A DNA stretch of 64,000 bases, taken from contig JALBYC010000004.1 of the NCBI GenBank assembly GCA_023212645.1, positions 682,001 to 746,000 of the forward strand. Direction: 5' to 3'. The notes under the pieces were generated by a model, which was not told where the DNA came from, ran no database searches, and saw nothing but the letters and a program-made list of their open reading frames with translations. Below, piece after piece: positions 25,509 through 44,600 of this stretch (positions are counted from its first letter, which is position 1; each line of letters opens with the position of its first letter). The position numbers and the translations under genes were made by a program. This DNA comes from Farysia itapuensis (lineage: Eukaryota; Basidiomycota; Ustilaginomycetes; Ustilaginales; Ustilaginaceae).

Positions 25509-26966
25509 CTACTTCTTTTTTCCGAGCAGGCCGCCAAGGAGACCGCTGCTTGACTTGCCGTTGCTGATCTTGCTACCGGGGAATTGCTGGGTTTTGGTGA
25601 AGTCAACCTTGACATTGGCGCATCCCGGGAATTTGTCCGCGAGTCTCTTGAGAGGTGCAGCAATCGCATTGTTGATCAGATCACTAGCAACATTGACGTC
25701 CGTGTACAAGAATCGCAGCTGCGAGGGGATGACACTCTCCACAAGAGCCTGGTACAGGTAGCACGAAAGAGCCGATGGATCCGACAAAAGCTTCTGTGTA
25801 TTGAACGCTCCACCGGTGAGATCGCCGACGTTAACACCTGCGAATGAGTTGATACTTCCCGTGTTGCCGCCGATCGAGAGCAGCTCAGGATGCTCGCTTC
25901 CAGACTTGACCAGATTGACCACAACATCAGCTAGGCTGAAACCTGCAGCAATCGGCCGGCGGTACCAATTCTCTGGGAATCTCTCGTGACCAGGCGTGTA
26001 GGTCAGAGCACCTGACTGAGCATCCCGAGTGATGGAGAAAAAGGGGAACAGGTTGGCCTCGTCGAGGTAAATGCGGTTGTTGCCGTTCTCATCGGCAGTG
26101 TTGTTGGCCATGAAGTTGACGATAAAATCGTGAGCAGCCGTAGTAACCACCAGACCGCCAAATGGAGAGTAGAAGAAATTAGGGTTCTTCTGGATCGAGT
26201 CCTGGAAGCGTTCCCAACAGTGCTCGGCAAGCACGTCGCGAGTGTAGACGTCTGCGCCACGGGTCTGATTGTTCTTGGCAATGTCAACCAGCTCCTGAAA
26301 GTAAGGGAGGTAGGTATGCACATTGTCGTTATTGGCACCGGGCTCATAGTAGTCACGTCGAGTCACGGAAGCATCTCCCTCATAGATGTTGTGAGTGTTG
26401 ATCCCCTGAGCTTGACCGCCGATCAGGTCGGTAACAACACCAGCGCCTGAGCCGGCAAAAGGACCACCGATAGACCACTCTTGCGAGGCAATGTTGCCTG
26501 TGAACACAGTGGCATACGCGGATAAAATGCCTCCCAGCTCAGGCGTAATGCCGTACACTTTTTCAACCACGTCGATGGCCTGGGTCAAAGAGACTACGCC
26601 GTTCCGAGGGAAGAAGCCGTGATTCGAGAGGACGTTCAGGCCAGGACAGGGTCCACGAATGTCGCCTTCACCAGGAGGTCGCCACTCGTGCTCGCCGGAC
26701 ACATCGAGATACTGCGCTGCTGCGTCAAATTTGAAGGAGTCCGGGTCGATTAGCGAGTCTTTGTCCCGCTTCTGAAGTCCAGCAACCTTGTTGGCAGACT
26801 TTTCGGAAGCCTCAAGAATTCGAGCTTTGAGCTTGGGACGCAGCTTGGCGCCCTGAGCGAGATTCCTGCCTTCCACCTGCTGAGCGACGGCGGGAAAAGC
26901 TAGTGCCCCACTAAGGAGAGAGAGCGAAATAGAAGCGGCCCCTGCAAGGCCAAGTCCAAACTTCAT
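25509..26966 (-). CDS. secreted heme-thiolate peroxygenase (UPO/chloroperoxidase family), copy A
   Basis: 485 residues, one exon. A signal peptide (about 1-24, ending GALAF-P) is followed by a propeptide-like basic region with KR at 66-67. Cys107 in GPCPGLNVLSNHGFFPRNG is the heme thiolate ligand of the family, and EGDASVTRRD (196-205) is the second conserved motif (Glu-Gly-Asp-x-Ser). The middle part holds NPNFFYSPFGG and AAHDFIVNF. The family uses hydrogen peroxide to oxygenate or halogenate organic substrates outside the cell. Copy B, about 1 kb upstream on the same strand, is nearly the same protein outside the N-terminus. Confidence 0.87.
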   Translation of the reverse strand: MKFGLGLAGAASISLSLLSGALAFPAVAQQVEGRNLAQGAKLRPKLKARILEASEKSANKVAGLQKRDKDSLIDPDSFKFDAAAQYLDVSGEHEWRPPGEGDIRGPCPGLNVLSNHGFFPRNGVVSLTQAIDVVEKVYGITPELGGILSAYATVFTGNIASQEWSIGGPFAGSGAGVVTDLIGGQAQGINTHNIYEGDASVTRRDYYEPGANNDNVHTYLPYFQELVDIAKNNQTRGADVYTRDVLAEHCWERFQDSIQKNPNFFYSPFGGLVVTTAAHDFIVNFMANNTADENGNNRIYLDEANLFPFFSITRDAQSGALTYTPGHERFPENWYRRPIAAGFSLADVVVNLVKSGSEHPELLSIGGNTGSINSFAGVNVGDLTGGAFNTQKLLSDPSALSCYLYQALVESVIPSQLRFLYTDVNVASDLINNAIAAPLKRLADKFPGCANVKVDFTKTQQFPGSKISNGKSSSGLLGGLLGKKK

Positions 26967-27987: not shown

Positions 27988-29451
27988 CTACTTCTTTCTG
28001 CCAAGGAGACCTCCAAGAAGACCAGTGCTCGACTTGCCGTTGCTGATTGTGCTTCCAGGGAACTTCTTTGTCTGTGTCATGTCGACTTTGACGCTGGAGC
28101 ATCCTGGGAAGTTAGCGGCGAGTCCCTTGAATGGACCTGTGATGGCACTCGTAACGAGGTCGCTGACAGTGCTTGCATCTTTGTACAAAAAGCGCAGCTG
28201 GGTCGGGATGACGCTTTCGACCAAGGCCTGGTACAAGAAGCAAGACATGGCAGCTGGGTTGGAAAGAAGCTTGGCAGTGTTGAGGGCACCACCAGTCAAG
28301 TCAGCGGCGTTGACACCGGCAAAGGAGTTGACCGTGCCAGTGTTGCCTCCGACGGAGAGCAATTCGGGATGTTCAGCACCGGACTTGAGGATGTTGACGA
28401 CAACGTCGGCCACGCCATAGGTTGCAGCGATGGGTCGACGGTACCAGTTCTCTGGGAATCGCTCGTGACCAGGTGTGTAGCTCAGCGCACCCGAACTAGC
28501 ATCGCGGGTGATGGAGAAGAAGGGGAACAGGTTGGCTTCGTCGAGGTAGATGCGGTTGTTACCGTTCTCATCTGCAGTGTTGTTGGCCATGAAGTTGACA
28601 ATAAAGTCGTGAGCCGCTGTAGTGACGAGCAGGCCGCCAAAGGGCGAGTAGAAGAAGTTGGGGTTGTTCTGGATCGAGTCCTGGAAGCGTGTCCAGCGGT
28701 GCTGAGCCACCAAGTCTCGCGTGTAGACATCGACACCCTTGCTCTGGTTGTTGCCGACAATGTCCACAAGCGACTGGAAGTAAGGCAAGTACGTGTGGAC
28801 GTTGTCGTTGTTGGCGCCGGGCTCGTAGTAGTCGCGACGAGTCACGGAAGCATCGCCTTCGTAAATGTTGTGAGTTGAGAGACCTCCAGCCTTGCCGCTG
28901 ACGAGGTCGGACACTGCGCCCAAGCCGCTGCCGCTGAACGGACCTCCGATCGACCATTCTTGTGCGGCGACATTGCCTACAAAGACAGTAGCGTATGCCG
29001 ACAAGACCCCTCCCAGGTCGGGTGAGATGCCGTACACTGTCTCGACTACCTCGATGGCCTGAGCGAGAGAGACGACCCCGTTACGAGGGAAGAAGCCGTG
29101 GTTCGAAAGAACGTTCAGGCCCGGGCAGGGTCCACGGATATCTCCCTCGCCAGGAGCTTGCCACTCGTGCTCGCCGGACACATCAAGGTACTGTGCCTTC
29201 TCGTCGAATTTGAAATCATTGGGACTGACCAAGGAGTCAACGTCTCTTTTGTGCATGTTGGCAAGCTTTTCAGCAGAGTCAGCAGAAGCTGCTAGGATTC
29301 TAGCTTTGAGCTTTGGGCAAAGTTTGGCAGCTTGACTGGAAGAAAGACTCCTGCTTTCGACATCTCGAGCAATGGATGGGAAAGCAGTAACGCTGTCCAA
29401 CAAGGACAGCGAGGCTGTGACAGCAGCCACAAAATATAAGGAGAACTTCAT
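27988..29451 (-). CDS. secreted heme-thiolate peroxygenase (UPO/chloroperoxidase family), copy B
   Basis: 487 residues, one exon. The signal peptide ends near SVTAF-P. It has the same GPCPGLNVLSNHG ligand motif, EGDASVTRRD motif, NPNFFYSPFGG block and C-terminal tail SSTGLLGGLLGRKK as copy A. Differences cluster in the first 60 residues and in scattered surface positions, so the pair looks like a tandem duplication kept functional. The C-terminal Gly-Leu/Lys tail is shared by both copies and has no obvious role. It is probably secreted and co-regulated with copy A, since each has a TATA element about 110 bp upstream of its ATG. Confidence 0.87.
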   Translation of the reverse strand: MKFSLYFVAAVTASLSLLDSVTAFPSIARDVESRSLSSSQAAKLCPKLKARILAASADSAEKLANMHKRDVDSLVSPNDFKFDEKAQYLDVSGEHEWQAPGEGDIRGPCPGLNVLSNHGFFPRNGVVSLAQAIEVVETVYGISPDLGGVLSAYATVFVGNVAAQEWSIGGPFSGSGLGAVSDLVSGKAGGLSTHNIYEGDASVTRRDYYEPGANNDNVHTYLPYFQSLVDIVGNNQSKGVDVYTRDLVAQHRWTRFQDSIQNNPNFFYSPFGGLLVTTAAHDFIVNFMANNTADENGNNRIYLDEANLFPFFSITRDASSGALSYTPGHERFPENWYRRPIAATYGVADVVVNILKSGAEHPELLSVGGNTGTVNSFAGVNAADLTGGALNTAKLLSNPAAMSCFLYQALVESVIPTQLRFLYKDASTVSDLVTSAITGPFKGLAANFPGCSSVKVDMTQTKKFPGSTISNGKSSTGLLGGLLGRKK

Positions 29452-32265: not shown

Positions 32266-33687
32266 ATGCCCGGCATACAGACCACTATCGCTCCTTTCGA
32301 TCAGAAACCTGTCTGCGAAAAGCAGCTGCTTTCGGTGCAGGAACTTGATCAAGCGATTGATGAAGCCGCAGCCGCTCAAAAAAGCTGGGCGAAGACTAGC
32401 ATAGATGATCGAGTAGCTATCATCACGAAATGGATGGCCGCTCTCGATGCCGACAAGGAAGAGCTTGGCAAAGAGCTCTCCATCCAAATGGGTCGACCTG
32501 TATCTCAGTGTGCAGGTGAGATCAAAGGCGCGCTACAGCGGTGTCGTCACCTGTGCAAGATTGCCAAGGACTCACTGACAGACTCGCCACGCACTGATAC
32601 CGAGACACCCAATCTCAAGCTTTCAATTCGCCGAGACCCCTTTGGTGTCGTCGCTATTGTCACTCCATGGAACTATCCTTATCTGACCACGGTCAACGGC
32701 CTGATCACTGCTCTCCTTGCTGGCAACGCTGTCGTGCTGAAGCCCTCGCCACAAACCCCCTTGACTGCGGAGTCGTTTCAGCGCGGTCTCGAAGCTGCAG
32801 GTCTGCCCAAAGGTCTCCTGCAGATCGCCCACCTCGACTTTGAAACCACAGCCAAGCTAGCCGCTGACCCTCGAATTGGGTTTCTCATTTTTACTGGATC
32901 AGTTGCTGGAGGCAAGGCATTGGCGAAAGCAGCCGCAGGTGGCCCGGGCTTTAAAGGTGTCGGTCTCGAGCTTGGAGGCAAAGACCCTGCCTACGTCCGT
33001 TCAGATGCCGATATCAAATGGGCCGCCGAAGAGCTGGTTGATGGTGCCATGTTCAACTCTGGTCAATCGTGCTGCTCAGTGGAACGTATCTATGTACACT
33101 CTTCTGTCTTTGATGAATTTGTTGCGGAATTCGTCACTGTGGCCAAAGGATTCAAGCTCGGCGATCCAAGCGACCCGAAGACCACAATGGGTCCTGTCGT
33201 CAGCCTCGCATCAGCGGAAAGAATCCGCAAGCAGGTGAAGGACGCGTTGCAAAAGGGAGCTCGAAATATTATCCCGGCCGATCTCTACTCAGAAGCCAAG
33301 GAGGGTACGGCAGTAGTTGCCCCCACTGTTCTTATCAATGTGGACCACTCGATGGAGATCATGACAGAAGAGACCTTCGGTCCTGCCATCGGTATCATGA
33401 AGGTGTCCTCCGACGAGGAAGCACTGAAGCTGATGAACGACTCTCACTACGGCTTGACTGCCTCTATCTGGACCGACATTGAAAAGCCCGAGTCTGCTCA
33501 AGCCTTCGACAAGTTGGCGACTGCTCTTGAGACGGGCACGGTCTATCTTAACCGAGCCGATGTATTGGACCCCGCCCTGCCCTGGACCGGCGTCAAGGAC
33601 AGTGGACGCGGCGTCAGCCTAAGCACGCTCGGGTTCGACCAGCTCACACAGCCCAAGTCGATCCACATGCGCCTCCGAAAAGCCTAG
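32266..33687 (+). CDS. NAD(P)-dependent aldehyde dehydrogenase
   Basis: 473 residues, one exon, a complete ALDH. Asn137 (PWNYP), Lys159, Glu235 (LELGGKD) and the nucleophile Cys269 (FNSGQSCCSVER) are in place, and the NAD-loop FTGSVAGG is at 209-216. Length and the RPVSQCAGEIKGAL segment are close to the succinate-semialdehyde/aminobutyraldehyde group. The start at 32266 follows the leader ending CTCATC and matches the family N-terminus; the frame is open upstream without homology. Divergence from the GS-like ligase suggests it oxidises the aldehyde released from an amine or gamma-glutamyl-amine. Substrate specificity is not proven. Confidence 0.85.
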   Translation: MPGIQTTIAPFDQKPVCEKQLLSVQELDQAIDEAAAAQKSWAKTSIDDRVAIITKWMAALDADKEELGKELSIQMGRPVSQCAGEIKGALQRCRHLCKIAKDSLTDSPRTDTETPNLKLSIRRDPFGVVAIVTPWNYPYLTTVNGLITALLAGNAVVLKPSPQTPLTAESFQRGLEAAGLPKGLLQIAHLDFETTAKLAADPRIGFLIFTGSVAGGKALAKAAAGGPGFKGVGLELGGKDPAYVRSDADIKWAAEELVDGAMFNSGQSCCSVERIYVHSSVFDEFVAEFVTVAKGFKLGDPSDPKTTMGPVVSLASAERIRKQVKDALQKGARNIIPADLYSEAKEGTAVVAPTVLINVDHSMEIMTEETFGPAIGIMKVSSDEEALKLMNDSHYGLTASIWTDIEKPESAQAFDKLATALETGTVYLNRADVLDPALPWTGVKDSGRGVSLSTLGFDQLTQPKSIHMRLRKA

Positions 33688-33887
33688 ATTGGGAACGTGC
33701 AAAAATGGTATTGAACCGATTTAGTTGCCGAGTGTGTTTTGTGAGATGTGCCACGGCAGGCCGATCGGATGTCGGTGAAAATCACATGCATGGCCTTCGT
33801 TAAGCCGTAGCGATAAGCAACACTCGCGAAGATTCACATAGTATCCGGTACCCTTATCCCTTCCATTCCCCACTGACAAGATCAACC

Positions 33888-35298
33888 ATGCCCGGACTTC
33901 GACTTCCCCATAAAGTGAGACTCGTTCTTCGCAACGTTTGAGAGACGATAGGAATGCTGACTTGTCCTTGTGTTGCTTTGTCTGCCAGGTTGCCGTAATC
34001 ACCGGTGGCGGATCGTAAGTAAACGTGGCACTTACCAATGGAATTGGAAAACAAGCTGACGGTGCTATACAAACATACAGCGGTATCGGACGCGAGTGCG
34101 CCATCCTGTTTGCCTCAGAAGGTGCCAACCTTGTTCTGGCCGACATCAACTTGGACGCATGTCAGCAGACAGCGGACTACGTTAACAAGAGCTTTCAAGA
34201 CGCCGAGATTCCCGTCAAGGCTGTCGCCGTCAAATGCGACGTCAGCAAGGAAGCTGAAGTCGAAGCAATTGTCAAGCGTGCTGTCGATGAGTTCGGACGT
34301 TTGGACGTTATGGTAGGTGCTGAATGCGCGAACGCGGTAAAGAGCTGGTTCTGACGATGCCCATCTATGTCGCAGTTCAACAATGCTGGTATCATGCACC
34401 CTGCGGATGACAACGCCCTCAACACCGAAGAAAGGATCTGGGACTTGACTCAGGCTATCAACGTCAAAGGTGTCTGGTACGGTTGCAAGCACGCCATCAT
34501 TGCGATGCGAAAGGTAACCATCCCTTCTCTGAACTGGTACTTGCTCGGTCAGCTGACAACACTCTCATCTGTCTGTTCAGAATGCCACCGACGAGTCAAA
34601 GGGCCTCCACGTTGGAGGGTCTATCATTAACACTGCCTCCTTCGTCGCAAAGATGGGTGCTGCCACTCCTCAGATTGCTTGTAAGTCAGACCCTCTGCCT
34701 TTTCACGTAGCACACCCGACTCACTTCATCACTGTCAAATCTACCAGACACTGCAAGCAAGGGAGCTGTTCTTGCCATGACAAGAGAACTCGCCATGGTT
34801 CACGCTCGAGAAGGCATCCGAGTCAACTCGCTCTGCCCGTAAGTTTATTCTGCCTGCACTTGCCGGCCGACGCATTGTGCTGACGTACGACCCTACTCTC
34901 TCTTCCATGTAACACAGTGGTCCACTCCAGACTCCCTTGCTGATGGACTTCCTCAACACCCCCGAAAAGCTCAACCGAAGACTCACTCATCTGCCTCTGG
35001 GACGCTTCGGTGAGGCCATCGAGCAGGCCAAGGCGGTCCTCTTCCGTAAGTATAGCCATCCATTTTGTTCGACCAAGCTGGACTAACATTGCGCTTCACC
35101 ACCTTTTTAGTTGCCTCTGACGAGTCGTCGTACGTTATTGGCCACGACATGATGGTTGACGGTGGACTTTCGACCGCATATGTGGTATGTATATCAAAGC
35201 AGACAACGACCCTTCTTGAAGAATACTGATGTTGACCTTGTATCTCACAGACTGCCGAAGGAGCACCCGTTCTTCCACCTCCCAAGAACTTGGCCTAA
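33888..35298 (+). CDS. short-chain dehydrogenase/reductase with eight introns
   Basis: Nine exons: 33888-33914, 33989-34014, 34081-34312, 34376-34513, 34581-34680, 34748-34838, 34918-35045, 35111-35184 and 35251-35298. All boundaries are GT-AG and in phase, giving 287 residues. The spliced protein is a classical SDR: VAVITGGGSGIG (NAD binding), NNAG, the catalytic Ser in IINTASF and YTASK (Tyr/Lys), then CPGPLQTPLL and HDMMVDGGLS. The first two exons are only 27 and 26 nt. It oxidises or reduces an alcohol/carbonyl of unknown identity. It follows the ALDH on the same strand (200 bp) and is convergent with the flavoprotein. Confidence 0.9.
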
Positions 35299-35450
35299 AC
35301 ATCTGGGCCAGGGGTTCAGATCTGATTAGCTTTCATCATAGAAGTATCACAATAATCGTTTCTCAAAACAGCGCAAAGCTGAGGTGTTTTTCATCTTGAT
35401 CGATTGACGAGCGAAACGGAATGGTGCTAACGTCCAGAAGGCAGATCCGC

Positions 35451-36776
35451 TCAGGCATGGGATGCGGGCTGGACTGCGCCACGCTGCTCTCGAACGCTTG
35501 TTTCGATGTCTGCAAACATATCGTATGTGTTCATTTCGTTCACGGTCAATTTGTCCACTTTGGCCGCGATGGCTGCGTCATGGGCATTGAGCGAGGAGAA
35601 GCCTATCCTCTCGTTCAGATTATCAAGAGCACGTGCTGATGCATCCTGGACGCGGGTGGCACGAGGCTTCCGAACACGCTCGTACAGCGCTAGCCCTGCC
35701 TCGACGTCTGTTGTGAAGCTGTATTTGTCGGAAAATAGAATGCCGAGGGCGGCTGCATCCTCGATGGCCTGACACGCTCCCTGGGATTGATGTGGCATCA
35801 TGGGATGAGCCGCATCGCCCAAAATGCAGGTCTGTCTGCGGAACCAATGCGAATAAGGCTCGTGTACATAAAGACGCCAAGGTTTTCGCTCGACTGAATT
35901 GGCAATTAGCGTCTGACACAGTGGATCCAGTTTGCTGTAGTCCCCTGCGAGGATCTCTTCGGGAGGCACTTCAGCAAAGACGAATCCTTCAGCATGATGC
36001 TTGGTAAGCTCGGTTGGCATGAAGCAGTAGAACGAGACAATGTCGCCGCCAGCGCAAGGACTCATGACGATTTTGTAGTAGTGGCTCAACCCTGATTTGG
36101 AAAATCCGCCCCAGAATTGGATGGCAGGGTCGGCGGCCCAACTGAGACCAAGCCTTTCGACCTCTTGTTTGCTGACGTTGCAACGGTAGCAAGTCTGCGG
36201 AGCAGAGGTAATGTGAGGTACAACTCCAATCGAGCTGCGTACTTTGGAGCGGATTCCATCCGAGCCAATGATCAGGTCTGCCTGGACCGACGCGCCATTT
36301 CGAAAGTGGACTTCGCCCTTGTCGGTGTTAACGTGCTCGACAATGTGGTCCATGACCAGCTCGCATGGTGAACCTTCGCCCTCGATGGAGACGGCAGCCC
36401 TCATCAGCATAGCGTGCATGTCCTGCCGGTGAAACATGTTGTACACATTGCCCCAGACTTGCTCGTAGTCGTCCAGCTGGTATTGGTTTAGAATCTCGCC
36501 CGAGTGCCAGTCTCGCATCGTGAGGTCCATGAGAACAACCGGTCGTCCAGACGGGACATCGACATTCCAGTAATGCAGCCATTGCGTACCGTTGGCAGCA
36601 CAAGAGATAGAGGCCCCAACTTCGACATCAAAGCCTCTTCGTTCGTATATGGTGACATTGTGACCTGCTCTTCTGAGAGCAATACCAGCGCTGAAGCCTC
36701 CAATGCCTCCTCCCAAGATTGCCACATTCAGCTTTTTGAAAGACGGCATTGTGTCTCGTCCTGCTTCTTCTGTCAC
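35451..36776 (-). CDS. FAD-dependent aromatic monooxygenase (salicylate hydroxylase-like)
   Basis: 441 residues, one exon. The N-terminal FAD-binding GGGIGG (22-27) is followed by YERRG; DLIIGSDGIRSKVR is the second motif (the DG motif) and CILGDAAHPMMPHQSQGACQ the GD motif near 330-350. Together these define class A flavoprotein hydroxylases, which add a hydroxyl to an aromatic ring using NAD(P)H and oxygen. The closest functional relatives are salicylate and 3-hydroxybenzoate hydroxylases; some smut enzymes of this group degrade plant salicylate. An alternative start is Met10 (36749). It lies 152 bp tail-to-tail from the SDR, next to the ALDH/GS-like pair. Confidence 0.85.
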   Translation of the reverse strand: MTEEAGRDTMPSFKKLNVAILGGGIGGFSAGIALRRAGHNVTIYERRGFDVEVGASISCAANGTQWLHYWNVDVPSGRPVVLMDLTMRDWHSGEILNQYQLDDYEQVWGNVYNMFHRQDMHAMLMRAAVSIEGEGSPCELVMDHIVEHVNTDKGEVHFRNGASVQADLIIGSDGIRSKVRSSIGVVPHITSAPQTCYRCNVSKQEVERLGLSWAADPAIQFWGGFSKSGLSHYYKIVMSPCAGGDIVSFYCFMPTELTKHHAEGFVFAEVPPEEILAGDYSKLDPLCQTLIANSVERKPWRLYVHEPYSHWFRRQTCILGDAAHPMMPHQSQGACQAIEDAAALGILFSDKYSFTTDVEAGLALYERVRKPRATRVQDASARALDNLNERIGFSSLNAHDAAIAAKVDKLTVNEMNTYDMFADIETSVREQRGAVQPASHA

Positions 36777-37475: not shown

Positions 37476-37853
37476 ATGCGATTCACCCTTTTCGCCTTGG
37501 CACTGGCCTGCGTCTGCCTACTGAGCTTTGCAAATGCCCAGCACGATGAGCTGTTGAAACGTCAAGCAGCCGCTGGAGGAGGAGGTGGTGTCACAACATC
37601 GTACACGGGCGTCCAAACCATCTCCGGCTACACCCCACCACCGTCATCCGCTTATGGAGTGCCATCCGTCTCTGCAGGAACCATCATGACCACTATTTCT
37701 GGCTACGGAAACACTTCCAATACCGGTGGATCTGGTGGCAGCTCTTCTGGTGCGCTCTCCCTCGTGCAAACACCACAATTCACCATCATCGCAGCTGGCT
37801 TGACCACCTTCCTCGGCGTCACAGTCGTTGCCGCTCTCGGACTCGCTTTCTAA
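37476..37853 (+). CDS. small secreted Gly/Ser/Thr-rich protein with GPI-type C-terminus
   Basis: 125 residues. The signal peptide (about 1-21, ending SFANA) is followed by LLKR, a Kex2-type site, a Gly run, a short Tyr/Pro/Ser/Gly-rich domain (TSYTGVQTISGYTPPPSSAY) and a hydrophobic C-terminus (TIIAAGLTTFLGVTVVAALG) after a Gly/Ser spacer. This is the layout of a small GPI-anchored surface protein. No cysteines remain after the signal peptide, unlike typical effector or hydrophobin proteins. Function unknown. It neighbours the repeat precursor at 38278-38649. Confidence 0.7.
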   Translation: MRFTLFALALACVCLLSFANAQHDELLKRQAAAGGGGGVTTSYTGVQTISGYTPPPSSAYGVPSVSAGTIMTTISGYGNTSNTGGSGGSSSGALSLVQTPQFTIIAAGLTTFLGVTVVAALGLAF

Positions 37854-38277: not shown

Positions 38278-38649
38278 TTACAGTCCCAGAGCGGCTTCTG
38301 CGTCGCCGAGTTCGTCAATGAGGTTGTCCTTTCCGTCCTTGCATCGCTTTCGGAGACCAAGAGCGCCAGATGCTTCAGTGAGCTCGTCAATGAGGTTCTC
38401 TTCGCAGTCATCGCGCTTTCTCAAACCAAGAGCTGCCTCAGCATCACCGAGCTCGTCGATCAGATTGTCCTTCCCGTCTTTGCATCGCTTTCGGAGACCG
38501 AGGGCGCCAGATGCTTCAGTGAGCTCGTCAATGAGATTCTCTTCGCAGTCGCTTCGGGCGAGCAAAGAGTCGGAGACAGGAATAGGAGATGCACAGGTAA
38601 ATGTGACGGCGACAGCAGCGAGAATCGCAACGCAAGCAGTGAGCTTCAT
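38278..38649 (-). CDS. secreted repeat precursor with Kex2 sites (KEP-type, possible peptide precursor)
   Basis: 123 residues. A signal peptide (1-20, ending TFTCA) and a short pro-segment with a single Arg32 precede two alternating units bounded by RKR: unit A (DCEENLIDELTEASGALGL; 34-52 and 81-99) and unit B (Cys-Lys-Asp-Gly start; 56-76 and 103-123). Cleavage after RKR at 53-55, 77-79 and 100-102 would release four acidic peptides of about 19-21 residues, each with one Cys at or next to its N-terminus and a shared NLIDEL...ALGL amphipathic helix. This is the layout of fungal Kex2-processed repeat proteins, which include wall repellents, pheromones and RiPP precursors. No Tyr or aromatic residue occurs in the units. 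Function unknown. Confidence 0.85.
   Translation of the reverse strand: MKLTACVAILAAVAVTFTCASPIPVSDSLLARSDCEENLIDELTEASGALGLRKRCKDGKDNLIDELGDAEAALGLRKRDDCEENLIDELTEASGALGLRKRCKDGKDNLIDELGDAEAALGL
38281..38550 (-). repeat. 141-bp coding tandem repeat (two copies, second truncated by the stop)
   Basis: Copy 1 is 38550-38410 and copy 2 is 38409-38281. The B units differ at 14 of 63 bases and the A units at three positions; every change is synonymous, so the encoded peptides are identical. Confidence 0.9.
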
Positions 38650-40423
38650 GACGAAGGTTTGGTCGTCTAGGGGAAAAGGGGTCTAGGAGTCGAGGTGAGG
38701 TATCGTCGAGGCTTTATGGTGGAGCTGATTAATGGGGGATATGGCAACTCGCTCGACAGCACCTCTCTTATATGTCGGCGAGGCTCTCGTGAGGAATCGC
38801 TAATAGCGCAGTCGTCCTGGACAGCTTTGGCCTAGCTGTGCACCGAGCTGAGGCTTCCTGGATGCGAAGCTTATCTCTGGCCTTCACCTTCCGTCGAGCG
38901 AGGTAGGTGCTGTCACAGCAAAGCAGGTGTTTACCTTGTCGATAAGAGATGCTCGTCATCGACCGCTATGAAGCGTGAGAGTGCGCACACCGTCACCAAG
39001 GAAGAAGCTCTTATCAGTGACAAGTGCAGTCGATGCTGAAGCATGGATCTAGCTTAGTTCATCGGCGTCTGCAAGATTTCAAGCCTAAGAGCAAAGCATG
39101 CTGAAGTGCCATGAGAAGACGCCGGGATCCGGCATTGACGGGTCGCAACCGTAGGCGGTCGAGCCGCACGCTCGGTGTGAAAGACTTCGGTACTGACAGC
39201 TGTTCGGTACGCGGAGATATTTTACGCTAGCGCTATATGACGTTGCACAGTGGCAGTCAACCCTCCGCGCTCTTTGTCTGACAAGTGCGAAGCCAGAGAT
39301 TGCCAGTATCTCGCCAGTAAGGCTGCAGATGTCCAACTCGCTGTTCCGCGGATTGAGAAGAATTTACTTCCTGCCTACATTGTTGAGTGATGAAGATGAT
39401 GCAAGGTCGATCCTATTGAAAAGACTTGTCGTATCAGCATTCCGGCCTTCTTGTTTTGATCAATGTGAGCTACCCAAAACATGATGACAGAATGCGATGC
39501 AGTCGAGCAAGGCACTACAGCGAAAGCATAGAGACCAGAGGGGCTCAGAGGAAATCTGTCATGTCACCGCAGCAAGTATCGACGGCGTTGTAGCTCGCTA
39601 GCGTCGCGAGGCTTGGCAGTCGCGCAGATCGGAGCTCGGACACGCTTGTCCTAGGGAGCTACTAGGCTGATCAGGGTTCTGCTTCGTCCACGGTCACTGG
39701 AACAGGCAGAACTCAAGGTTCATACGTTCATAGATCGGTTTTCAGTATCTTGCCGATATGTATGCTGATCACGCTAACGCGGAGCCCATCTTTCGTCGAT
39801 CCGAGGTCACCAAAGATAAGCAATTCGCAAAAGAATTCCCCGGATCTGCACGATCAAGTCTGGTATCGGTCTTCAGCTCATTCGACTCTACGACGATCGC
39901 TGTCGGGCCGTTAGGTTCAGTGGCCGCTGAATGCAAGTCGCCGGAGGCAAGCCCGGATGCCGGATGCCGGATGCCTCGATACCCAGAGCACGTCTAACAT
40001 TGACGTGCTGTTCTTTTGATCTTTTGATCTTTAACGTTTCACATCGTATCGGCCATCATGTCTTTGCTTCTTGTGCAAGCTAACGCTTAGCAATCATCAC
40101 AGAATGGGTCGACTGGCGAAAAGTTAAGACGAGTCCGAGCCAGCCTTCTGACAAGCCGAAAGTAGCAAGCCAAGCAGGGCAACCGCTGACCTTGGAAACG
40201 CGGGCTTGGACATCTGAAAGGGCTAACGCAAGCTCACTGACAATTGAGCTGAAGGGCAGCACGCACACATGCAGAGCTCGAACATGCAGTCCAGTACGTC
40301 GAGTTAGACGAACCGCATTCGACGGTCTGAAGGCAAGCCTGATGGCGTGAAGTAGTTGATTGCAATGGCGATATGTTGTAGTGACGAGTAGAGGGACAGA
40401 CAAGCGGTCGACGCTCGGCTACT
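38650..40423. other. gene-poor 1.8-kb stretch
   Basis: The first 120 bp are the promoter of the repeat precursor (TATAAG on the minus strand at 38767-38772). Beyond that only short frames occur, without family resemblance. GGATGCC is tandemly repeated near 39953-39975. A short multi-exon gene cannot be excluded. Confidence 0.4.
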
Positions 40424-40967
40424 TTATTCTTGCTCCGTGTACTGTTGGGAGCGGACGTGGTGTGCAAGAGTCAGCAACCAGACCGGACTGAAGCGCCAGT
40501 CTAATCAAGACTTACTTTGTCTCGGATATCTTTCCATTGTTTCTGTGAACACGAGAAAGAAGAGATGATGATATTATCAGCAGATGCGTCAGACGATCCT
40601 TTCGCAGAGTAGGCATCGGGTACAGGTCGGCATTGATTGTTGCGGCTCCATATCGCAGGGGATCGGACCGCTCGCAAAGAGCAATCGAGCGCAATCTCAG
40701 ACCGTAGCGGCACCAGTGCTTAAGCTGAACCGATACTTACACCTCGGTTGTGGGAGTCCCAGAACGCTGATGTCGCGAGATCGTATCCGATGGCGAATCC
40801 GAAGGCACCAAAGAAGATAGTGCCGACGCTATCGGCAGGACAGAACAAAGAGTCAGCAAATCGGTGAGGAGCAACAAGAGCCATCGTGGAGACGTGGCCG
40901 GCACTTTGACTCACTAGACAGAGTTACGCTTGAAGACGGTGTTGTAGATTGTCTTGTAGACGGTCAT
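40424..40967 (-). CDS. QCR9: cytochrome bc1 complex subunit 9 (four exons, 61 residues)
   Basis: Exons 40967-40915, 40828-40741, 40542-40516 and 40441-40424 are joined by introns of 86, 198 and 74 nt (donors GTGAGT, GTAAGT, GTAAGT; acceptors GATAG, TCACAG, CAACAG). Phases agree. The protein starts MTVYKTIYNTVFKRNSVYVG, has one membrane helix (TIFFGAFGFAIGYDLATSAF), the conserved WDSHNRGKQWKDIRDK and a short acidic end. Order and length match Qcr9 of yeast, a single-span subunit of mitochondrial complex III beside the Rieske protein. The last two exons are only 27 and 18 nt, so ordinary ORF searches miss this gene. Confidence 0.92.
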
Positions 40968-41631
40968 GGCTGCAAATGTGTTGATCAAGGATGATGGAGC
41001 AGACGGGTTCGAGACGATCAGCATCTCAAATTGGCATCGACGAGCACCCGGTTCTTCCTCAGCTCAAATCACGATTTTCGGAGCCGAGCTCAGATCGGGT
41101 TCAAAAGCTCATTCGCACGAGATCGCAGCTAAACGCGTCGCGGGTGTTGGGTGAATCAGGATTCAGGGGCTTCACCACCCAGAAAAAGACCAACACTTTA
41201 GCCAACCGTCGTGGCCAGCCAACGCAATGCTCGTTAGCCATAGCAAGACGACAGATCACAGCGCAGCAAAGCATGGGCGCAAGCTCTCTCGTCCTGTGTA
41301 GCAATCACAATGTGAGAGCCTGCAGACTTTGTCACTGGATTCGTGCAGTTCATCCTGTGCCATCAGTGTGAACGTGTGGGATATTTGTAGCACTGGGTGC
41401 CGCACCGTAAGATGAGATGCCGCAGCGAAAGAAGATATACAGGTACTCGCAGCTGGTGACTTTTAGAGCACGGGCGGTTGAATGCGTGTCTGGCCCCTAA
41501 AGGTTGAGTACGCCAACGCGCATGTGATTAAGCAAGGATCGCTTCTTTGATGTGCGGCTTGCATGCATGTTCACCTTATGCCATCATCCTCCATTCTGAT
41601 CACAGGCGCGTAACAGCTTCGTATCCTCAAC
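40968..41631. other. intergenic between divergent QCR9 and Ivy1-like gene
   Basis: 664 bp presumed to hold both promoters. A GGTTCGAG string at about 41007 resembles a tRNA B box, but no A box or cloverleaf surrounds it. Confidence 0.4.
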
Positions 41632-44600
41632 ATGCGTAGGGTTCAGCGACTTATCGGCGTGACCGACGCCAAGCCAGCTTCGCTGAGCACGAGGCGAAGC
41701 AACGGCAACATGAACGCGCATGCATCCGACAGTTTGTCGGCATCATCCGAGACACAGCCAAACTTCCTCGCACCCCCGTCCCCTTCTAGACAGCTTACCT
41801 CATCGTCGCAACCAACGTCTCCCATCAGTCCTGGCTCATACATCGGGACACCCAGAGGATCGCCTCAGCCACCTAGCCCCAATGAGCAATACTTTGACTT
41901 ACAAACCAATGCCACTGCAGGACAACCCCAATCTGCTCGGCCCGTCACGCCAGTACAAAGTTTGGTCTCTCGACCCGTCTCCCCTCAGCCACTTGCTACG
42001 CTTGCCTCTAATGGTGTCCCACCTATCGACAGAACTGATTTGCATAAGGGTCTAAGAGCACTTGAGGCTTTGTTGGTCAATCTCGACGAGTATCGCGATT
42101 TGGCCGTCAGAATGGCGAAAGCGCAAAAGAAGCTGGCAAAAAGCGCTTCTGAGCTGGAGAAGATCAAGTCTGTCCGTGAAGCACCCTCACAAGCACTTCA
42201 AGTCAGCTCGCTCATGTTTGAAGCTCTGCACGAAGTGTCATCCAAGCACGCAAAGCAAGTCCAGAAAGAATACGAAGCCATCAATGACTCTTCAGCCAAA
42301 TACTTCAAACGGGTTGCCAAAGAAGAGCGAGCACATGACGAGCTGGTCGAAGCCCTAGATGCTAAGATCAAGAAGGCAAATGCCGCACATGAAAAAGTGG
42401 TGAAGAAGGCAACCGCAAACAAGGCTCTCGAATCTCACGACCGGTACATTGCTACCGTGCAAGGACTGGCCAGCGACATCACCCGGGCCAAGAGCAATCA
42501 CGCTGCTTCCATGGGCGCGAAAAGCCATCTCTCCAACTTGATGATTGCCAGCACCGTGGGCGGCCTTGCTGACCTGGAATTCCGTCGCACTTGCGAGTCT
42601 GTGAAACGCATGGGACCTACTGTAGGCAGACTGAACCAGATTCTCTGCTTCACTTCATCTGAGTTAATGCCAGCCTCGCAACCGCTGGACCTGGACGATA
42701 ACGAGACTGGTAAAGCCGAACAACTCAACAAACTGACAGCAAAAATGGAGTCGCAAGCGCGAGCCCAGGCTGAAGCAGAAGCTCAAGTAAGCAAAGAGGA
42801 AGAGATGCTTACGATGGCGCAACAGCTAGGCTGGGCTCCGCCTGCCGCTTCAAGTGGCGCGAACAAACTTGGCCGTGTCAGTAGCTTTGCCAGTACCAAC
42901 AGGAATGTCAGTGGAGACACCTCACTAGTCGCTAATGCGGTCATCTCGAAAGCCCCTCAAATCTCAAGTCTCGACAAACAAGATCGAACACTGACTGCTA
43001 ACGAAACCGATGGCGTATCCAGTGCACGTCTGCCCGATGCCGAGTCGTTGCTTAGTGACATCACAGACCAGACACCTCGGCACCACCACGAGCCCGTTCT
43101 CGGGCTTGCCGAGAACTTTCAAGCATCAGAATTACCTGCTCAAGTTTCGAGCACCGGGTTGCTGTCGAACCGTGCGGCTACACAAGAGCAATCGGCAGAC
43201 CAAGCCGAAGATGAACGAAGATATGCAAATCCTCTTGGGCCTGATTCGAGCTTCTCGAACAGTGTGCAAGGATCGGACGATGGCAGCCGTCTGCCAAGGA
43301 CACCAGATGACAGTGTGGGCGGTATACTAGGACCTCGCGATTTTCCCAAAGCCAAAACGCAGCGTCACGACTTTGAATCGGCTATGCCGAAGGCTCGACA
43401 GGATCCGGATCGACGACCGGCCGAACGAGCACTGGAGCAGTACAGGGCGTCTACATTTGCGACCCGCAGCCATGCCAGAGACGCACAGAACAGTAGCGAG
43501 GATAGGCCGGATAGGGCCACCCCAGACGTTCAACAAGAACGCCAAAGTCAGGATGACTGGGAGAAAGTTGGTCTCACACGCAAAGTGAGTCTGTGGGAGC
43601 GTGAGCGAGAGCGCATGAAGCAGCTGGAAAGAGAAGAGGAGCTGCAAAGGCAGCAGGAAATTCAGACCCGATATCGAGGAGGGCACGGAGTGGATCGCAG
43701 CAGCGGCAGTGGTTCGGACACCCTCTCGCGTACCGGCTCAGGCTTCTATGCGCCCTCATCCGGCTCTCGCAACAAAAGCAGTGGTATGCGTCCTAGGCAC
43801 AGCGAGCCCCTCGTAAGCGAACGAAATAGCTCTCTTGGCTTAGGCTTCCCGCGCCCAACGCCTGCCGAGCTGGAACAGTTCGCTCCTGCAGTTGGGTTCA
43901 CTCGTCTTTCGGCCACCGGAGTGACGCGGTCCCTCAGTACCGACACAACGGCGTCAGAACGAAGCTTTGTCTCCCGCATGAAGGCTCGCTACCAGGAGGA
44001 AAAGGACCTCGAACGAGAACAGCGGGAGCTCAACGTACTGAACAAGGAAAGGGCGGCACGTCGTATCACAATGGAACCTGCCAGTCGACGCGTGCCCGAG
44101 ATTGCTTCTCGCTATCAGAATCAAGCACTCGGTGCAGGAAGTCAGACTCTCACCCATGCTCAGGAGGTGCCAGGGCGCCGGTATCACGACAGTCTGCCTG
44201 CTGCTAGCGGATCTTCCCGTTTGTCATCAACCCGTCCGGCTCACGAGATAGACGAATTTGGTCATTATCGGAAAAGTGCCGAGCGCCGGGACGCCGAGAT
44301 CGTCAGCAGGAGCGCACGAGGCCCACTACCGAGCCCTGGTCAAAGCATCGAGCCCGTTCATTCCGATATTTGCGGATGCCACCAGTGCTCTGCGCGGTAC
44401 TACGGCGGTGGATCAAAGGGCGACGACCGCAGCGCGGAAAACACAAAGACGGTCAAATCGCTCAGTCCTCGTCCATTCAATGTACGTCGTACGACAATGC
44501 CGGCACCGATGCGAGGTGAACGGGATCTAGCCCCGACGAGCAATCAGCGCACAGGCGAGTCTGTGTCGGCCTTTTACGGCGCTGCATCCCGTCGGGATGA

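Follow-up and report, generated by a model that had tools for sequence, protein, structure and literature searches.

A probable Kex2-processed repeat precursor in Farysia itapuensis with relatives in other smut fungi

What does a short open reading frame built from two alternating acidic repeats encode, and in what form would its product work? The question was raised by a locus within a 64,000-nucleotide stretch of contig JALBYC010000004.1 of Farysia itapuensis, hereafter called the window. The original prediction, made from the letters of the DNA, read it as a 123-residue precursor of the form A-B-A-B with RKR separators, and this arrangement was borne out on the minus strand: an N-terminal segment and a pro-region are followed by the four units, with RKR at each of the three junctions. 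The parts are listed in Table 1.

Table 1. Features of the F. itapuensis precursor gene (positions in the window)
Feature	Position	Strand	Basis or remark
Precursor gene, 123 aa and stop, intron not needed	38278..38649	-	Open reading frame and relatives
Possible TATA box (TATAA), about 120 bases 5' of the ATG	38768..38772	-	By eye
Hydrophobic N-terminus, probable signal peptide, residues 1-20	38590..38649	-	Hydropathy script
Pro-region, residues 21-32, ending in LLAR	38554..38589	-	[L/M]xxR at this boundary in six of six members (alignment and script)
Unit A1, SDCEENLIDELTEASGALGL	38494..38553	-	
RKR site 1	38485..38493	-	
Unit B1, CKDGKDNLIDELGDAEAALGL	38422..38484	-	
RKR site 2	38413..38421	-	
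Unit A2, DDCEENLIDELTEASGALGL	38353..38412	-	
RKR site 3	38344..38352	-	
Unit B2, residues identical to B1	38281..38343	-	Fourth LGL abuts the stop codon

The best 12-residue hydropathy of the N-terminus was 2.73, at residue 6, and the (-3,-1) rule permits a cut after residue 20. Phe17, within this segment, is the only F, W or Y of the whole protein, and the predicted peptides are thus free of aromatic residues, as had been claimed. The protein had no Pfam match at E 0.1, in agreement with the initial failure to recognise the peptide among described families, and the window had no Rfam match at gathering score. Tandem Repeats Finder reported periods of 72 and 141 bases in the gene. A DNA pattern for NLIDEL gave four matches in the 13.7-Mb genome assembly, all within the gene, and the protein searched against the same assembly matched only itself; this single-copy statement holds for the 13.7 Mb searched, which may be a partial genome (assemblies described in PMC8951962 range from 18 to 36 Mb).

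The approximately 3 kb 5' of the gene (38650-41631) hold only short open reading frames, of at most 126 aa, and the next long one upstream starts at 41632, which makes this a long upstream region for the window. With respect to the pheromone response element of Ustilago maydis, 8 matches with at most one mismatch were found in the window versus 12.05 expected, the nearest lying more than 6 kb from the gene. Tail to tail with the precursor gene lies a small, probably secreted, Gly/Ser-rich protein of 125 aa (37476-37853, plus strand) with LLKR after its N-terminus, a hydrophobic C-terminus and no Pfam match. Further away, an aldehyde dehydrogenase (PF00171) stands beside a FAD monooxygenase (PF01494) at 32266-36749, a group in which pieces near 34367-34630 read by eye like a short-chain dehydrogenase; the monooxygenase weakly resembles 3-hydroxybenzoate and salicylate hydroxylases, with scores under the NCBIfam cut-offs, and the group is perhaps concerned with degradation of aromatic compounds. 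Two neighbouring minus-strand genes (25509-26966 and 27988-29451) form a tandem pair of Peroxidase_2 genes of the haem peroxidase/peroxygenase type, 76% identical (371/487), each with PF01328 as its single Pfam match.

Whether the reading frame is a gene, and on which strand, could not be taken for granted. The opposite strand is also open, its reading frames there reaching 138 and 122 aa. Between the repeat copies one antisense frame is almost silent, with 2 of 42 residues changed and no stop. Because the antisense frame is nearly silent too, silence by itself favours the sense frame only weakly. It is the relatives described below, predicted in the sense frame in three smuts, that settle the strand, and a chance open reading frame was ruled out by five relatives sharing the layout of the precursor. 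That the locus is no gene at all, being either a chance frame on a repeat or the reverse of a coding strand, we consequently regard as extremely improbable.

The constraint on the units was assessed from differences between their copies. The two B copies differ at 14 of 63 bases and at 0 of 21 residues, and the copies of the A core, DCEENLIDELTEASGALGL, differ at 3 of 57 bases and at 0 of 19 residues, confirming the claim that the copies differ only synonymously. Over the A-B unit of 43 residues, 17 changes fall on approximately 30.7 silent and 98.3 replacement sites. When 17 changes were distributed randomly over the first A-B unit with the base-to-base spectrum kept, all were silent in 0 of 200000 runs, with a mean of 10.2 amino-acid changes and a minimum of 3. 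These data support amino-acid constraint on the units, and selection on their residues was what the original prediction had proposed.

The two kinds of unit have different histories at their silent sites. In B, 14 of 21 codons differ versus 12.4 expected from random synonymous codons (P 0.31), so there is no excess, and selection for extra silent divergence between the B copies was rejected; in A with its RKR, 3 of 22 codons differ versus 13.7 expected (P 0.00002), the expectations being drawn from the codon usage of 22 of the window's 46 long open reading frames. The difference between A and B was significant (Fisher p 0.0005), and a breakpoint in silent divergence as strong as the one observed appeared in 16 of 20000 permutations. 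The silent sites of B therefore look randomised: the silent memory of the duplication is gone and every residue has been kept, which points clearly to constraint acting on the peptide sequence. The A stretch, in which silent sites are not randomised while those of B are, was made uniform more recently, possibly by gene conversion. The claim that silent divergence speaks against a recent duplication accordingly held for B, where randomised sites rule out a recent tandem duplication as the full account, and failed for the recently homogenised A. The peptides had also been called identical, and this is true of B and of the 19-residue A core; immediately before that core, copy 1 has S, next to LLAR, and copy 2 has D, next to RKR, and cuts after LLAR and RKR would therefore yield A1 and A2 peptides with different first residues.

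Five relatives were obtained in three protein searches, the first with the single sequence and later ones with a profile. Ustilago trichophora UTRI_06452_B (P0003) was found with the single-sequence query at E 3.7e-3, and four others were scored while not in the profile: Melanopsichium pennsylvanicum MEPE_06460 (P0004, E 3.0e-23), Ustilago loliicola NDA16_002927 (P0005, E 6.5e-23), P0007 (E 8.2e-20) and P0008 (E 1.4e-8). The sources of P0003, P0004 and P0005 are all smuts. The searches covered lengths of 0.55-1.75 times the query, and the last scored the 7998 candidates sharing most words, limits by which longer or more distant members, those of U. maydis included, may be missed. One further candidate, P0006 (E 7.8, PF01402 domain), was dropped as unrelated, and Pfam matches of P0004 and P0005 fell below cut-off (for example MF_alpha_N for P0005, 17.2 versus 22 bits) and were discounted.

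All six members have in common a core like NLIDELxxAxxDLGL, and LGL ends 15 of their 17 units. Eight of these 15 ends stand before RKR, RRR or KKR, four before the stop codon and three before a non-basic linker, GDAEA[K/S][D/N]. The two units lacking LGL are the second of P0003, which diverges after KDL, and the second of P0008, divergences that may be either real or artefacts of the gene models. The original prediction had looked to homologs with conserved RKR spacing; homologs were found, and in two of the six members, P0005 and P0007, some or all A-B junctions carry the linker instead. P0005 has the order A-linker-B-RKR-A-linker-B, with one dibasic site, and P0007 is a single A-linker-B with none, which means that a cut at the A-B junction is not a trait of the whole family. 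Only the F. itapuensis precursor and P0004 have at least three units with basic sites at every junction. A further claim, that Cys-mediated dimers are possible, was excluded as a family trait, as 0 of 5 relatives have a Cys after the N-terminal segment and such a residue is confined to the F. itapuensis protein. We also observed that the B core (38422-38484 and 38281-38343) contains GDAEA, five letters of the linker of P0005 and P0007, which may be chance or may be the trace of a recombination between core and linker.

Position-wise conservation was surveyed in 13 core variants picked for their LGL end, with A and B of the window each counted once and two of the 17 units dropped, so that LGL in 13 of 13 is a product of selection. 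Asp4 was found in 13/13, Asn1 and Ala9 each in 12/13 and Asp12 in 11/13; position 12 is Ala in both F. itapuensis units. Hydrophobic moments compared with same-residue shuffles gave P values from 0.009 to 0.214, below 0.07 in 9/13 variants. The 15-residue cores of F. itapuensis itself were not more amphipathic than their shuffles (P 0.12 for A and 0.21 for B). Of the common NLIDEL...ALGL amphipathic helix that had been proposed, then, the core recurs in the relatives and the amphipathicity is not seen in the F. itapuensis units. Structure models placed a helix in each unit, with mean pLDDT of 55.1 and 57.3, so helix formation is weakly supported by modelling, and at these values the models were too uncertain for a fold search. 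A sequence search of solved structures returned four weak matches, the best to eIF2 beta at E 0.027, which we do not believe.

Taken together, the locus probably encodes a smut KEX2-processed repeat protein (KEP), which would release acidic peptides of approximately 2 kDa. This reading follows from the placement of RKR exactly between units, the relatives, the constraint and the presence of a kexin gene, and upholds the Kex2-type precursor first suggested. Judging from its N-terminus the protein would enter the secretory pathway, and judging from the motifs kexin would cut after LLAR and after each RKR. A Kex1-type carboxypeptidase would be expected, from the known pathway, to remove the basic tails. 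The predicted products would be two peptides from the A units, each 20 residues long, and two from the B units, each of 21. All would be acidic (net charges -6, -7 and -4) and would end in LGL, which is also the C-terminus set by the stop codon of the gene. The kexin gene is represented by one PF01483 match in the 13.7-Mb assembly, at 96.4 bits versus a cut-off of 21 and in an open reading frame of 797 aa. The preference of Kex2 is described as Arg at P1, Lys at P2 with tolerance and an aliphatic residue at P4, with LxxR named as an expanded motif (PMC8528282); LRKR, LRRR, LKKR and five of the six pro-boundaries match this preference, and the sixth pro-boundary is MVKR, with KR. Several observations count against this reading: the first cut rests on the non-dibasic LLAR, a non-basic linker follows 3 of 15 LGL ends, 2 of 17 units have no LGL, the structure models are poor and the F. 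itapuensis units are not more amphipathic than shuffles.

The same linkers bear on the form in which the units would act. If RKR triplets were themselves linkers, the precursor would work uncut as a single repeat protein, and since the A-B junction of P0005 and P0007 is non-basic, joined units must be usable there; however, basic triplets or a stop stand at LGL ends in the proteins of four species besides F. itapuensis, and a kexin gene is present in the genome, which leaves this account quite unlikely. Equally doubtful is the proposal that the working product is the A+B pair and not the single peptides, different smuts holding the pair together differently. Under this proposal P0005 of Ustilago loliicola and P0007 would keep A and B joined through the conserved linker GDAEA[K/S][D/N], and in F. 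itapuensis, where RKR stands between them and each carries one Cys, a disulfide could re-join them; if it were true, gain or loss of a protease site would let the family alternate between a single long product and a pair of short ones. The geometry does not agree, since a linker that connects the C-terminus of A with the N-terminus of B would favour antiparallel pairing and cysteines close to both N-termini would favour parallel pairing. In addition, P0003 and P0004 carry basic sites without any Cys.

With respect to the job of the predicted peptides, we lean, tentatively and at less than even confidence, to a soluble extracellular ligand that would fit a specific partner by means of a short helix and a free LGL end. 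A recognised helix with a free end is suggested by the fixed Asp and by LGL being encoded at the stop in four proteins. Such a ligand might, with similar reservation, act on the fungus itself or on the plant, and would be neither a bulk surface coat nor a membrane-breaking peptide; a lytic peptide is disfavoured by the acidity of the predicted products. Wall peptides with surface activity, comparable to the U. maydis Rep1 repellents, gathering on hyphae and altering wettability or attachment, are a less probable alternative. Smuts do make such peptides from Kex2-cut repeats (PMC4617103, PMC8528282), and most relatives' cores are amphipathic as helices, but Rep1 repeats are described as 34-55 residues long (PMC4617103) versus 20-21 here, the F. 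itapuensis cores do not exceed their shuffles, and a yield of two or four short acidic peptides from each precursor would seem little for a bulk coat. Plant-directed effector peptides freed during infection we hold to be about as improbable as repellents: three relatives come from smuts, and roles in infection are reported for other repetitive proteins of smuts that carry Kex2 sites (PMC4617103, PMC7329392), but no sequence feature points to a plant target. Whichever holds, the job may be subtle, because six KEP knockouts in a mushroom were reported to have no visible phenotype (PMC9769878); what fungal KEP peptides do is described there as largely unknown.

Among known systems the closest are the KEPs, which have a signal peptide, as the precursor probably does, and like it have dibasic sites between units (PMC6339444, PMC7329392) and often hold more than one repeat kind (PMC7329392), as the precursor holds A and B. 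The rule of Umemura is given as at least three repeats of at least eight residues separated by KR, KK, RK or RR (PMC7329392); applied by hand, we found four units of 20-21 residues with three RKR, the front of A1 being bounded by the non-dibasic LLAR. Judged from their description, the precursor also lies near the pipeline criteria of Le Marquer (PMC6339444), and its core is absent from the conserved motifs named in the part of that paper available to us. No description of the NLIDEL family was found in the parts of the main texts covered, among them those of PMC6339444 and PMC7329392. Analogous by design, when set side by side from their descriptions, appear to be Rep1 and Hum3 of Ustilago maydis, smut repeat precursors that likewise carry Kex2 sites (PMC4617103). 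Rep1 is described with 12 repeats of 34-55 aa and Hum3 with 17 repeats of 31-36 aa and a hydrophobin domain (PMC4617103), whereas the precursor has four units of 20-21 aa. In ascomycete alpha-type pheromone precursors Kex2 frees short identical peptides from one protein, a layout like that predicted here, but the XA/XP (STE13 signature) that follows the Kex2 sites there is replaced here by CK, DD and CK, and the precursor has no Pfam match. The Candidalysin precursor Ece1 is cut by Kex2 and Kex1 into short helical peptides, much as would happen here, but Candidalysin is likened to cationic antimicrobial peptides (PMC12153327) and the peptides predicted here are acidic. Ustiloxin-type (dikaritin) cores are described as needing Tyr for ring closure (PMC7329392), and the precursor lacks F, W and Y beyond residue 17; a search for UstYa (DUF3328) gave 0 matches in the 13.7-Mb genome, as it did in the control genomes. 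The locus is thus a real gene of a small, apparently undescribed smut peptide family within a general class that is already known. The family differs from the KEPs in that some relatives have no dibasic sites between units, and its odd points are an A-B junction that carries a Kex2 site or a linker depending on the member, and a Cys in F. itapuensis only. Being small and synthesisable, with a clear core and natural relatives whose A-B junction is cleavable or uncleavable, it is a tractable system in which to ask whether the peptides act singly or joined.
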